Below the pieces are notes generated by a model. The model was given only the letters and a program-made list of their open reading frames with translations. It was not told the origin of the DNA and did not search any database. A stretch of DNA of 64,000 bases from Bacteroidota bacterium (GTDB lineage Bacteria > Bacteroidota > Bacteroidia > Chitinophagales > Chitinophagaceae): NCBI GenBank assembly GCA_026391455.1, contig JAPLEH010000056.1, positions 1 through 64,000 on the forward strand. The letters are read 5' to 3'. Of this stretch, positions 19,467 to 38,128 are shown piece after piece. Numbering within the stretch: the first letter of the stretch is position 1; each line of letters opens with the position of its first letter. The position numbers and the translations under genes were made by a program.

Positions 19467-19814
19467 ATGTACGCATTGAAAAACAAAGTTCAACTGATCG
19501 GTAAACTCGGTAATGCCCCGGAAATTAAAACGCTTGAGAGCGGAAAGAAAATGGCCCGCTTTTCTGTGGCCACCAGTGAAAACTACCGCAATGCCCGCGG
19601 CGAAAAGATCACCGAAACCCAATGGCATACACTCGTAGCCTGGGGAAAAGTGGCGGATATCGCAGAAAAATTCCTCACCAAGGGCAAAGATGTGGCCGTT
19701 GAAGGAAAGCTGATCAACCGGAGCTACAATGACAAAGAGGGAAATAAAAAGTACATCACCGAGATCCAGGTGAACGAACTCCTACTCCTCGGTGCCAAAA
19801 CCTCCGAATCCTAA
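19467..19814 (+). CDS. ssb: single-stranded DNA-binding protein, short form without acidic tail
   Basis: The product has an OB-fold SSB domain (MYALKNKVQLIGKLGNAPEIKTL, ARFSVATSENY, ETQWHTLVAWGKVADIAEKFLTKGKDVAVEGKL). The ATG at 19467 is chosen because SSB proteins begin at this conserved block; an open frame extends upstream without similarity. At about 115 residues it ends in LLLLGAKTSES. It therefore lacks the flexible linker and the acidic DDDxPF-like tip used by housekeeping SSB to recruit repair proteins. It is probably an accessory paralogue. A GxxExxY-bearing repeat unit begins 9 bp after its stop. Confidence 0.92.
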   Translation: MYALKNKVQLIGKLGNAPEIKTLESGKKMARFSVATSENYRNARGEKITETQWHTLVAWGKVADIAEKFLTKGKDVAVEGKLINRSYNDKEGNKKYITEIQVNELLLLGAKTSES

Positions 19815-19822
19815 ACTACTCA

Positions 19823-19852
19823 GCCACAGATGAACACAAATAAGCACAGATT
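19823..19852 (+). repeat. left inverted repeat of the GxxExxY unit
   Basis: It starts GCCACAGATGA and consists of three phased decamers of consensus ACACAGATNN. It matches the right repeat (20431-20463) in reverse complement and the direct copies at 37.66 kb. An ATG inside it (19830) opens the GxxExxY frame. Confidence 0.85.
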
Positions 19853-19916
19853 TTGTGAAAAGCAGGGTTCGTCTGTGGCTGATCTTTTAACCCACATATT
19901 TAAATATTTACAAAGT

Positions 19917-20297
19917 ATGTCAAGCCCTTTCCTGCATAAATCTGAATCGTATCAGGTCATTGGCCTTTGCATGGAGGTTCAGAACAATCTTGGGTATGGG
20001 TTCTCCGAAGTGCTTTATAAAGATGCTATGGAGCATGAGTTTGAAAGTAATAATATTTTATTTGCCAGAGAAGTCGAATTGCTTGCACATTATAAGGGCA
20101 AACAACTAAAACATCGGTTTTTCGCAGATTTTACCGTTTTTGATAAGATCATTGTCGAGGTCAAATCATCCCATGAGGGTATTAATAATAATCATATTGC
20201 CCAAACATTAAACTATTTGAAGGTATCTGGCTACGAAGTAGGTCTTATTATTAATTTTGGCAAAAGAACATTAGAATATAAACGGCTTGTTTGTTGA
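19917..20297 (+). CDS. GxxExxY family protein, PD-(D/E)XK nuclease-like
   Basis: The name motif is present as GFSEVLY. It is followed by a putative nuclease core: FFADFTVFD with an acidic residue, then IVEVKS (E-x-K) and a later conserved Gln in HIAQTLNYL. This order fits the PD-(D/E)XK phosphodiesterase fold. The ATG at 19917 (MSSPFLHKSESYQVIG) gives the short N-terminus I expect for the family. An upstream ATG at 19830 lies inside the left repeat and would add 29 residues encoded by repeat DNA. From 19917 the product has 126 residues. No biochemical role is established that I can name. The gene is the sole cargo of the repeat-bounded unit. Confidence 0.88.
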   Translation: MSSPFLHKSESYQVIGLCMEVQNNLGYGFSEVLYKDAMEHEFESNNILFAREVELLAHYKGKQLKHRFFADFTVFDKIIVEVKSSHEGINNNHIAQTLNYLKVSGYEVGLIINFGKRTLEYKRLVC

Positions 20298-20430
20298 AAA
20301 TAATTGTGTTTTATTAAGTAAGTACTCTTTCTTATTTGGTAGTTCACCGGGTTGAATATGATCGCTCATTTTATTATTTCAGAATACCGTTAATATTACT
20401 TTTTCTCTGTCTTATTATTTTCTCTTATTA

Positions 20431-20463
20431 AATTATCTGTGTTTATTTGTGTACATCTGTGGC
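20431..20463 (-). repeat. right inverted repeat of the GxxExxY unit, overlapping the helicase start
   Basis: Read on the minus strand it begins GCCACAGATGT and again shows three decamers. It covers all candidate start codons of the downstream helicase gene (TTG 20447 and GTG 20459). Confidence 0.85.
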
Positions 20464-22999
20464 AAACTTTAATCCTGATACAACCAATGAGTTTTTTCAA
20501 TTGGCCATTCAACTGGTCAATCAAAGCAACCGAACGCTTTTTTTAACCGGAAAAGCAGGAACCGGTAAAACTACTTTTTTAAAATATATCCGACAGCATT
20601 GCCCCAAACAAATGGTGATCACGGCGCCCACCGGCGTAGCCGCCATCAATGCAGGAGGGGTTACATTGCACTCGTTCTTTCAGCTCCCACTCTCCCCCTT
20701 CATTCCGGAAACCAGGGGCACCGGGTTTTCTGCCAGCTCAGCGGAAACGTCTAACAAACACAGCCTGATCAGCCAGCTTCGTTTCAACGGAGAAAAAAGG
20801 AAAATACTCCAGCAACTCGAACTGCTGGTTATCGATGAGATCAGTATGGTACGCTGTGATATCCTCGATGCCATAGATACCATTTTAAAGCATATCCGAA
20901 GACGACCGCTGGAACCATTCGGGGGTGTACAACTCTTGCTGATCGGCGATATGTTTCAGCTTCCCCCCGTAGTCAGGGAAAATGAATGGCGTTTGCTCTC
21001 CGATTATTATGGCGGCCCTTATTTTTTTGATAGCCAGATTTTTTCCGGTTCGCCACCCCTTTGTATCGAATTCAACAAAATTTACCGGCAGCGGGATGAA
21101 GCCTTTATTGATATCCTCAACCAGGTACGGAATAATCTGCTTAATGAATCAGGTATGAAAATACTCGATAGCCGGTACCAACCAGTATTTAAACGCAATG
21201 GCAAAGACGGGTACATCATTCTCACCACACATAATCAGAAAGCTTCGGAGATCAACTACAGAGAGCTGCAGGAGCTCCCTTCAACCGTATTCCGCTATGA
21301 TGCCGAGATCGCGGAAGATTTCTCAGAACGTTCTTATCCGGCAGAAGAAATATTGCTGCTCAAAGAAGGCGCACAGGTAATGTTCATACGAAACGACCCC
21401 GCCGAAAAAGGGAAACGCTTTTACAACGGTAAGATCGGCACTGTTTCCCGCCTTGAATCGAATAAAGTATTTGTGCGGTGTAACGAAGAAGAAGATGAAA
21501 TAGAAGTGCAAAAGGAAAAATGGGAAAATATCCGCTATACTTTGCAAAAAAGCACACAAAAACTGGAATCAGAAGTGCTCGGATCCTTTACCCAATACCC
21601 GTTGCGACTCGCCTGGGCCATCACCATTCATAAAAGCCAGGGCCTCACTTTTGAAAAAGCCATCATTGATGCCGGTGAATCTTTCGCTCCGGGACAGGTA
21701 TATGTTGCCCTGAGCCGGTGTACCAGTCTGGAAGGATTGGTATTACAAAGCAGGATCAGGTCCAATAGTATTGCCAACGACCCCCGGATCATGGAATTCG
21801 CCAAAAGAAATGCGTCAGGCTCCCAACTGAAATCCGAACTGGCTATTGCTTCGCAACAATACCAGCAGTCGATCCTTTTAGCCATTTTTCACTTTGCTTC
21901 TTCCCTTGAAACCACCCGGCAACTTCAAGCCCTGCTCCAGGAACATATATCATCGTTCAGTAAAGAATCACCAGACTGGATCATCTCGTTGGTAGAGAAC
22001 ATGAACAGGTTGAACGAAGTGGGAACAAAATTCAACACACAATTACAAACCCTCTTCGATATCTCCCTCCCGCATGACCAAAACCAACCCCTGCAACAAC
22101 GGGTAAAAGCAGCAGCCCTTTATTATATACCGGAAATACAACAAGTCGTTGACCATCTAAGGCATTGCCCGGTGGTAACAGATAGCAAACTGCATTCGAA
22201 AGAGTTCAACGAGCTGGTCAAAGAGTTGTATTCAGGTATTGCTGAAAAACAATACCTGTTAGAAGGATTGAAATTGGGTTACGACCCCGAAGCCTTTTTA
22301 ATCCACCGTAAAGGTTTTGTATTGCCTGCATTTTCTGTCAATGCATATGCCGGCGCGTCCGGGCAATACCAGGAAAGTCCGCACCCGGCGTTGTTGCAGC
22401 AACTCCGAAAACTGCGCGACAGCATCTGTGCAAAAAAAGACCTGCCCATTTACCTCGTGGCGGGCAGTGCCACATTAGATGAATTGGCCCGATATCTGCC
22501 GCAAAGTCTGGATGAACTAAAAAAGATCAATGGATTTGGCGCAGCTAAAACAGAAAGCTATGGTCAGCAATTCCTGGATATTATACTTGCCTATTGCCAG
22601 GAAAAAGACCTCCACTCATTGATACATGAAAAAGCAGGCAAATCCAAAAAACAGAAAGAGGATAAATCACCCACCCGGGCCAAAAAGGGGGAAACCTATA
22701 CAGAGACACTACAGTTGTACCGTAAAGGAATGACCGTTTCAGAAATAGCCAACGCCAGAAAGCTTGCTCCGGGTACAATCGAATCACATTTTGTAAAACT
22801 GGTTGGACGTGGCGATCTTACAGTTTCAGAATTGATAGCCCCTGAAAAATATGCCCGGATTGCCGACCTATTGAAAGATTATAGTGGAAATACCATCACT
22901 CCGGTAAAAGAAATGCTGGGAGATGATATTAGTTTCGGAGATATCCGATTAGTAATGGCCGACCTGGGCATTACCTATTCCCCTTCCGGGGATTCATAA
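20459..22999 (+). CDS. PIF1-like helicase with C-terminal HRDC-like and HTH domains
   Basis: This SF1B helicase has Walker A GKAGTGKTT near residue 31, TAPTGVAA, Walker B VIDEISM, GDMFQLPPV, and late motifs AITIHKSQGLTF and VYVALSRC, as in PIF1/RecD2. A segment near residue 680 (LARYLPQSLDELKKINGFG) resembles an HRDC domain. The end carries an HTH_40-like module (YRKGMTVSEIANARKLAPGTIE). It likely unwinds DNA with 5'-3' polarity in repair or replication. The frame has no ATG before the Walker A region. The only usable starts, GTG 20459 and TTG 20447, lie inside the right repeat of the GxxExxY unit, so the original start may have been replaced. Confidence 0.9.
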   Translation: MANFNPDTTNEFFQLAIQLVNQSNRTLFLTGKAGTGKTTFLKYIRQHCPKQMVITAPTGVAAINAGGVTLHSFFQLPLSPFIPETRGTGFSASSAETSNKHSLISQLRFNGEKRKILQQLELLVIDEISMVRCDILDAIDTILKHIRRRPLEPFGGVQLLLIGDMFQLPPVVRENEWRLLSDYYGGPYFFDSQIFSGSPPLCIEFNKIYRQRDEAFIDILNQVRNNLLNESGMKILDSRYQPVFKRNGKDGYIILTTHNQKASEINYRELQELPSTVFRYDAEIAEDFSERSYPAEEILLLKEGAQVMFIRNDPAEKGKRFYNGKIGTVSRLESNKVFVRCNEEEDEIEVQKEKWENIRYTLQKSTQKLESEVLGSFTQYPLRLAWAITIHKSQGLTFEKAIIDAGESFAPGQVYVALSRCTSLEGLVLQSRIRSNSIANDPRIMEFAKRNASGSQLKSELAIASQQYQQSILLAIFHFASSLETTRQLQALLQEHISSFSKESPDWIISLVENMNRLNEVGTKFNTQLQTLFDISLPHDQNQPLQQRVKAAALYYIPEIQQVVDHLRHCPVVTDSKLHSKEFNELVKELYSGIAEKQYLLEGLKLGYDPEAFLIHRKGFVLPAFSVNAYAGASGQYQESPHPALLQQLRKLRDSICAKKDLPIYLVAGSATLDELARYLPQSLDELKKINGFGAAKTESYGQQFLDIILAYCQEKDLHSLIHEKAGKSKKQKEDKSPTRAKKGETYTETLQLYRKGMTVSEIANARKLAPGTIESHFVKLVGRGDLTVSELIAPEKYARIADLLKDYSGNTITPVKEMLGDDISFGDIRLVMADLGITYSPSGDS

Positions 23000-37658: not shown

Positions 37659-37948
37659 CCACAGATGAACACAGATGGACACGGATAAATACAGATTGCC
37701 TGCCTTTCGTCAGGGGTTAGCCGCAGATGAACACAGATCAACACAAATAAATACAGATTGCCTCCGGCAAGGGTTTGGCCACAGATGAACACGAATACAC
37801 ACAAATAAATACAGCTAAAAGCTGTATTCCTCCCAAAACTCCTTTTCTCTGCGTGAAAAATTCGCCTGCGGCGAGTACTTGTGACACAGCCTGTCCCGCC
37901 TCAGCGGGAGATGAACACAGATGGACACGGATAAATACAGATAAATAA
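37658..37948 (+). repeat. four direct copies of the decamer-built repeat
   Basis: Copies of about 40 bp start near 37658, 37720, 37778 and 37907. Each holds four phased decamers of consensus ACACAGATNN, beginning CCACAGATGA (the last copy lacks its first bases). Spacers are unequal, and some contain small hairpins such as CCCGC/GCGGG near 37895-37910 and AATACAGCT/AGCTGTATT near 37807-37827. The same family bounds the GxxExxY unit at 19.8-20.5 kb. The copies lie in a convergent gap. Confidence 0.88.
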
Positions 37949-37968
37949 CCATGGCGAATTGTATTCAA

Positions 37969-37988
37969 CCTGCCTGCCGGCAGGCAGG
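37969..37988. repeat. 20-bp perfect palindrome
   Basis: CCTGCCTGCC at 37969-37978 is followed directly by its reverse complement at 37979-37988, with no loop. It lies between the decamer repeats and the 9-bp tandem array. It is not followed by a T run. Confidence 0.9.
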
Positions 37989-38078
37989 CCTATGAAACCT
38001 ATGGAACCTATGCAACTTCTTGAACCTATGGAACCTCTTGAACCTATGAAACCTATGCAACTTCTTGAACCTATGGAA
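37989..38078 (+). repeat. 9-bp tandem repeat, about ten units
   Basis: Units vary around AACCTATGG (AACCTATGA, AACCTATGC, AACTTCTTG, AACCTCTTG). A higher-order order of units recurs after about 45 bp. The frame is open and would encode a Met/Pro/Glu/Leu-rich peptide, but there is no sign of a gene. Such arrays can change length by slippage. Confidence 0.88.
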
Positions 38079-38128
38079 TTTCCTACCGGAGACAAGACCC
38101 CTTTTTCAAAAAATCACGTTAGAAGAAC

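Follow-up and report, generated by a model that had tools for sequence, protein, structure and literature searches.

A GxxExxY nuclease gene enclosed by inverted heptamer arrays: a probable member of a widespread REPtron-like unit in Bacteroidota

Results

A single nuclease gene lies between two inverted arms

The window, a 64,000-nucleotide stretch of Chitinophagaceae DNA, holds a GxxExxY/PDDEXK_3 nuclease gene (19917–20297, + strand, with the ATG at 19917 as its likely start) between two host genes on the same strand. Upstream is a putative ssb gene for a single-strand binding protein (19467–19814, + strand), and downstream is a gene with RecD-like PADLOC matches (20459–22999, + strand) that we provisionally call helicase-like. 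The left arm, three ACACAGAT-like decamers (19823–19851, + strand), is separated from the ssb stop codon (19812–19814) by 8 bp, and an inverted copy of it forms the right arm (20435–20463, − strand). The initial annotation had described inverted repeats of about 30 bp around the gene, each made of three 10-bp blocks, and a hairpin at the left end, and these features hold up: the outer 29 bp of the arms (GCCACAGAT...) differ at two positions, each arm consists of three decamers with a loose fit to ACACAGATNN, and complementarity is 83% over 40 nt (19823–19862 against 20424–20463). The left-end hairpin (19820–19882, + strand), in which 19820–19835 pairs with 19867–19882, is 94% complementary over 16 nt, with a predicted DNA folding energy of −18.4 kcal/mol (z −5.4). 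From arm to arm the unit (19823–20463) measures 641 bp and contains one gene; no second ORF of at least 80 aa was found between the arms. An in-frame ATG at 19830 falls within the left arm, and the likely GTG start of the helicase-like gene (20459–20461) sits in the right arm. Several relatives have a separate CCGTGGCAAC past the arm as the helicase start.

As had also been proposed, the only cargo is a PD-(D/E)XK-like protein without a transposase. The window protein matches the TIGR04256 (GxxExxY) profile at 124.4 bits (cut-off 35) and the PF13366 PDDEXK_3 profile at 113.3 bits (cut-off 22), and at E 0.001 these were its only matches in Pfam and NCBIfam, with no HUH/tyrosine or other transposase family among them. 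E31, D71, E81 and K83, the presumed catalytic residues of the PD-(D/E)XK fold, are all present and are retained in 99–100% of rows in an alignment of 166 (with the window protein entered twice); for Q96 and Y100, conservation is 92% and 96%, respectively (165 rows). PDB sequences gave no match to the nuclease up to E 1, and a structure model built from two sequences (pLDDT 38.6) was too poor to confirm the fold. None of the PADLOC defence families matched it up to E 0.01, and we rejected a named defence gene on that ground. We also set aside a phage gene, as two scans, each confirming only relatives of its first sequence, gave one viral contig.

GxxExxY genes are carried by 152 of 296 sampled Bacteroidota genomes, about half, and often in several copies. 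Two tandem pairs, each on one strand with starts 0.5–0.75 kb apart, were seen at G129:C4:68683-69764 and G235:C1:3199652-3200531. The accessible portions of the literature searched mention GxxExxY in passing and give no function; the repeat strings, or PDDEXK_3 together with a repeat, were not found in that literature, and accounts elsewhere or in database notes are possible.

The window decamer is one of many arm versions

A two-decamer pattern with at most three mismatches matches the window 16 times, where 0.41 matches are expected and 0 of 100 shuffles reached 16. The decamers seen in the arms recur, in direct order and with no gene, in a cluster at 37659–37952 (+ strand), where all have one orientation and form units of about 58–62 bp with a partly shared tail. 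This cluster is followed at 37985–38085 by another type of short repeat (approximately CCTATGGAA/CTTGAACCTATG), apparently similar to repeats near four-helix-bundle genes. Across the whole source genome, the three-decamer pattern has 72 matches and its reversed form 4, so most arrays there do not lie at a GxxExxY gene. An inward-facing partner within 400 bp accompanies 2 of 22 array sites in this genome, and direct copies adjoin many of them. Among 37 relatives, the pattern gave 1–8 matches in four and zero in the rest.

The source genome has five GxxExxY genes, and ACACAGAT decamers occur at the window gene only, on which ground we rejected a universal decamer; it is one of many arm versions. 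The other four genes have inverted flanks of different sequence and of varying strength, with scores of 35.0 (L002), 15.5 (L001), 13.5 (L005) and 10.0 (L004), and 3 of the 5 reach the score of 14 that is used below. As this decamer marks one gene of five and other inverted flanks occur elsewhere, we widened the question to any inverted flank. Two other arm types gave 11 matches each in 38 relatives, with 2 and 5 of these at a GxxExxY gene and the remainder in three genomes with other GxxExxY genes (G004, G012 and G027). With these types hardly dispersed, wide dispersal is not a general property of the arms.

Most GxxExxY genes across the phylum lie between inverted repeats

We drew GxxExxY genes from a set of 38 relatives, of which 24 have the gene (the matches used being free of short fragments and a few others), from 90 places in carrier genomes (30 given and 60 picked by hand, one per genome), from seven plasmid records and from one named locus. 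This yielded 171 unique genes, of which 165, nearly all from Bacteroidota, were kept for flank length. The inverted-repeat threshold of 14 was chosen after a first look at 75 unique genes, 71 of them scored. At this threshold, inverted repeats bracket 115 of the 165 GxxExxY genes and 5 of 152 neighbouring control genes, and flanks mismatched by joining the left side of one gene to the right side of another reach it in 19 of 495 cases. The claim that decamer repeats flank such genes thus survives in a wider form, as a statement about inverted repeats of any sequence, and fails for this particular decamer. The remaining 50 of 165 genes score below 14. The bracketing is also found when proteins are clustered at 60% identity (median score of at least 14 in 24 of 36 clusters) and when the controls are restricted to those with intergenic gaps on both sides (4 of 43 bracketed; 70% vs 9%, p = 3e-13). 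Direct repeats reach 14 at 48 of 165 GxxExxY genes and 5 of 152 neighbouring genes. For plasmid genes, the threshold is reached by 2 of 3 inside Bacteroidota and by 0 of 4 outside it (Treponema, Gemmatirosa, Sphingomonas and a fusobacterium).

Arms are inward-pointing heptamer arrays

In 93 of the 115 bracketed genes, the arms match themselves best at a lag of 8, 9 or 10, and most arms consist of a heptamer near CRCRRAK (CACAGAT, CACAGAG, CGCAAAG, CACAAAG, CACGAAT and others) in units of 8–10 bp. The heptamers point inward from both flanks. Arrays of at least two heptamers lie on the + strand upstream of 66 and on the − strand downstream of 72 of the 165 genes, with 13 and 13 on the opposite strands and 2–4 among 152 controls; CRCRRAK was chosen after looking at the arms, and these polarity counts test it on its source genes. 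Both properly oriented arrays are present at 45 of 165 GxxExxY genes and 1 of 152 controls, fewer than the 115 bracketed genes because numerous arms deviate from the strict motif and some have another sequence (e.g., TGTCTGAACCATGATT). In the 40 nt after the stop codon, − strand heptamers number 1.11 per GxxExxY gene vs 0.03.

The median element is 504 bp long, and its left arm starts a median of 6 bp past the stop codon of a co-oriented upstream gene (97 genes). Where both neighbours could be scored, 80 of 102 units are co-oriented between two genes, and a left-end hairpin occurs in 23 of 115 bracketed genes vs 1 of 115 after shuffling. We considered operon orientation as a special mark of the unit and rejected it, as ordinary genes are nearly as co-oriented (80:9 vs 49:12, p = 0.15). 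The placement between co-oriented genes and the hairpins, including the strong one at the left end of the window unit, would suit an element that acts at the RNA level, in which the paired arms of the transcript would enclose the gene in a stem that serves processing or protection, much as in an intervening sequence. Against this, arm mismatches compatible with G–U pairing number 124 and those of the reverse kind 120, so selection for an RNA helix is not apparent, and similar arrays occur without the gene. We rejected the RNA stem on the missing G–U excess and regard this reading as very improbable.

Arm type follows protein type

Among the 115 bracketed genes, we compared pairs whose neighbouring ORFs, within the stretches analysed, show no similarity, and counted arms as shared at a score of at least 14. 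Shared arms were found in 19 of 38 pairs with protein identity of at least 70%, in 13% of 287 pairs at 60–70% and in 0.9% of 3031 pairs below 40%, and in a Mantel test of protein against arm type, 0 of 2000 permutations matched the observed association. Similar proteins sharing arms at unrelated sites indicate that a protein and its arms travel, or are copied, together.

This match bears on whether the arms might be ends for an unknown transposase encoded elsewhere, with the nuclease as cargo. Terminal inverted repeats together with short palindromic copies do resemble insertion sequence ends and MITEs, and the protein itself belongs to no transposase family in Pfam or NCBIfam. Yet arm type tracks the GxxExxY protein, which is not required of a passenger, and the window arms enclose no further ORF of that 80-aa minimum; we hold the cargo explanation to be highly unlikely.

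Gene-less arrays accompany the gene within one genus

As a test of the motif, we counted exact three-heptamer arrays in another genus, using 150 genomes; a few of them had been a source of loci before. Arrays were present in 88 of 121 genomes with a GxxExxY gene vs 3 of 29 without (p = 6e-10, with the kinship of species left in), for totals of 1421 and 9 arrays, respectively, and the mirror-image pattern gave 5 matches in all 150 genomes. The tie persists within genomes of 2.5–4.4 Mb (p = 2.8e-5). Larger genomes have more genes and also more arrays, and a partial rank correlation of 0.49 remains, shared ancestry being left in. In some genomes, arrays far exceed genes in number. Among the matches listed for G347, we examined solo arrays at 20 of 22 sites, leaving out two of CACAAAG type; 17 of the 20 have an inverted partner 0–95 bp inward and 0 of 20 have one outward. 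These gene-less palindromes measure about 60–155 bp, and several look nested. Short, gene-less elements with terminal inverted repeats, as expected of MITEs, thus make up 17 of 20 sites in G347 and 2 of 22 in the source genome.

One might suppose that palindromic repeats collect in intergenic gaps and that the gene merely sits there. Inverted flanks do occur at the 4 of 43 intergenic-flanked controls, and unrelated palindromes are found at two of the sites described below (miaB and L218). The difference from those controls is nonetheless large, the arms match protein type across unrelated sites, and the arrays are concentrated in genomes that carry the gene. This explanation was already disfavoured, and we give it scarcely any weight.

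Units look like old residents at two sites

In the genus of the source genome, twelve genomes have a long match to the helicase. The GxxExxY gene lies directly before it in ten (G000, G001, G004, G005, G008, G012, G015, G018, G021 and G022); G010 and G019 have no GxxExxY gene there, and G019 retains a hairpin of the repeat type. The ssb gene is upstream wherever the contig reaches, including in G008, G010 and G019; the G005 contig ends first. In G008 (L067), the GxxExxY frame at this site is degenerate and CACGAAT-type arms still flank it. Nine genes with usable flanks, selected by helicase label alone and all with ssb upstream, form one clade (SH-like support 97, 120-column tree). Within a locus, the two arms are much closer to each other (21.7) than arms on the same side are between species (13.0; 0 of 100000 partner permutations as high). 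The simplest reading is a single old insertion, repeated insertion of one clade at this site being a less simple possibility. The window copy does not look recent; it looks like a member of a clade lodged between ssb and the helicase gene in this genus.

A second site lies between putative miaB and sigma-54 regulator genes. The sample was non-random, with 90 loci from 150 genomes (the 30 best-ranked and 60 picked among the matches listed); both flanks were present in 89, of which 35 had a GxxExxY match, and after 4 fragments were dropped, 31 genes were used. These again form one clade (support 96), and 29 of the 31 have arms. Arm similarity within a locus is 23.4 vs 17.4 for same-side arms and 14.9 for permuted ones (0 of 20000), and the nearest relative's arm fits almost equally (22.3 vs 23.4). 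In 54 of the 89 species, the site had no match to the GxxExxY gene, and there are pairs in which one member is occupied and the other is not although their flanks are about 94% identical. Six loci (L269, L289, L298, L301, L303 and L313) have a different ORF here in place of the GxxExxY gene, about 170 aa long and resembling a membrane protein, and GAAACTTGAAACCTG-like repeats surround it.

At a third site (L218), we used the best 30 loci out of 299 genomes. Among these 30, 24 have the GxxExxY gene, 15 of the 24 as inserts of 538–596 bp with like arms, and four other loci hold an 84–85-bp palindrome without a gene at the same junction. Two of the 15 inserts, those of L351 and L355, have the same change in both arms, and the GxxExxY frame is split in both. 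At base resolution, no clean empty site or target duplication was found at the miaB and L218 sites.

With one clade per site at ssb–helicase and miaB, GxxExxY genes look like old residents that are not mobile there, yet the two arms have changed jointly at both sites. Such apparent long residence is what a domesticated regulator would show, a protein that uses the arms as its operator to control its own expression or that of the operon (ssb, helicase), with solo arrays as leftovers and nothing moving; the short distance from upstream stop codon to left arm and the helicase start within the right arm would fit as well. Speaking against a regulator are the near-invariant catalytic residues, the excess of arrays over genes in some genomes, the similar units that adjoin unrelated genes and a co-orientation that is not significantly above that of controls. 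We consider regulation unlikely.

Discussion

We interpret the window feature as one case of a REPtron-like unit, widespread and about 500 bp long, in which a GxxExxY gene lies between its own inverted heptamer arrays, and put the probability of this reading at roughly 95%. It draws on what is observed: the bracket, the polarity of the heptamers, the link between protein and arms, the joint change of both arms and the gene–array tie in one genus. The initial annotation had proposed a repeat-plus-nuclease unit in the manner of REP and RAYT. The phylum-wide bracketing, the protein-matched arms and the gene-less palindromes support that likeness. The window decamer, however, is one of many versions, and the window copy does not look recent.

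How the unit might spread is a separate matter, and we lean towards a cut-and-copy mechanism. Heptamers spaced 8–10 bp apart recur at roughly one DNA turn. The protein, probably as an oligomer, would bind the arrays on one DNA face or folded as hairpins, and the nuclease would cut or nick at or beside them. Host repair or replication might then place copies of the unit in intergenic sites, together with gene-less palindromes copied in trans, and a unit lodged behind a host stop codon could be kept for a long time, as between ssb and the helicase gene. Cutting could also explain why the two ends are alike, as one arm would repeatedly convert the other. Mobilisation of this kind is inferred. The boldest form of the idea, which we offer tentatively and would not bet on at even odds, is a bacterial mobile element of a new class, without a transposase: a lone PD-(D/E)XK nuclease would recognise inverted heptamer arrays, spread a 500-bp unit between operons, breed palindromic non-autonomous copies in trans and keep its ends alike by cutting and conversion, enzyme and ends drifting together.

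The unit looks undescribed and self-contained, and may copy or move short repeats. Short intergenic repeat families could thereby gain an enzyme, and the function of GxxExxY becomes directly testable, since its likely partner DNA lies beside the gene in dozens of natural versions.

Several known systems offer comparisons. Among homing endonucleases of the PD-(D/E)XK fold, a stand-alone nuclease is itself a mobile gene. The present unit, with a stand-alone nuclease as its putative mobile gene, differs in that no intron or intein is seen and in that repeats bracket the gene and are dispersed. It differs from insertion sequences in the absence of a known transposase (Pfam, NCBIfam). MITEs are short gene-less elements with terminal inverted repeats. 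The palindromes without a gene, about 60–155 bp long and some nested, resemble MITEs, which are also named in PMC3733652. Their parent here would encode a PD-(D/E)XK nuclease and not a classical transposase, and target duplication was not found at the miaB and L218 sites.

In the TIRtron/TIRYT system, as the available text of PMC3733652 presents it, a tyrosine transposase gene is involved and copies within one genome can differ in their repeats. The likeness lies in a gene between long inverted repeats that vary among copies of one genome; the differences are the tyrosine transposase there and the periodic heptamer arrays here, which that text does not describe for TIRtrons. REPtrons, in the portions consulted of PMC8266576, PMC3733652 and PMC2817692, pair a small RAYT/TnpA-REP gene, a relative of HUH-Tyr transposases, with REPs, palindromes of 20–40 bp with a GTAG tag. 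In place of the HUH-Tyr relative, the present unit has a PD-(D/E)XK nuclease, and in place of palindromic REPs it has arrays of degenerate heptamers; the GTAG tag is absent from both strands of the two 29-bp arms in the window. What it shares with REPtrons, so far as those sources describe them, is the arrangement as a whole: a small gene with inverted repeats on either side, copies of such repeats scattered through the genome, and protein and repeat types that co-vary.
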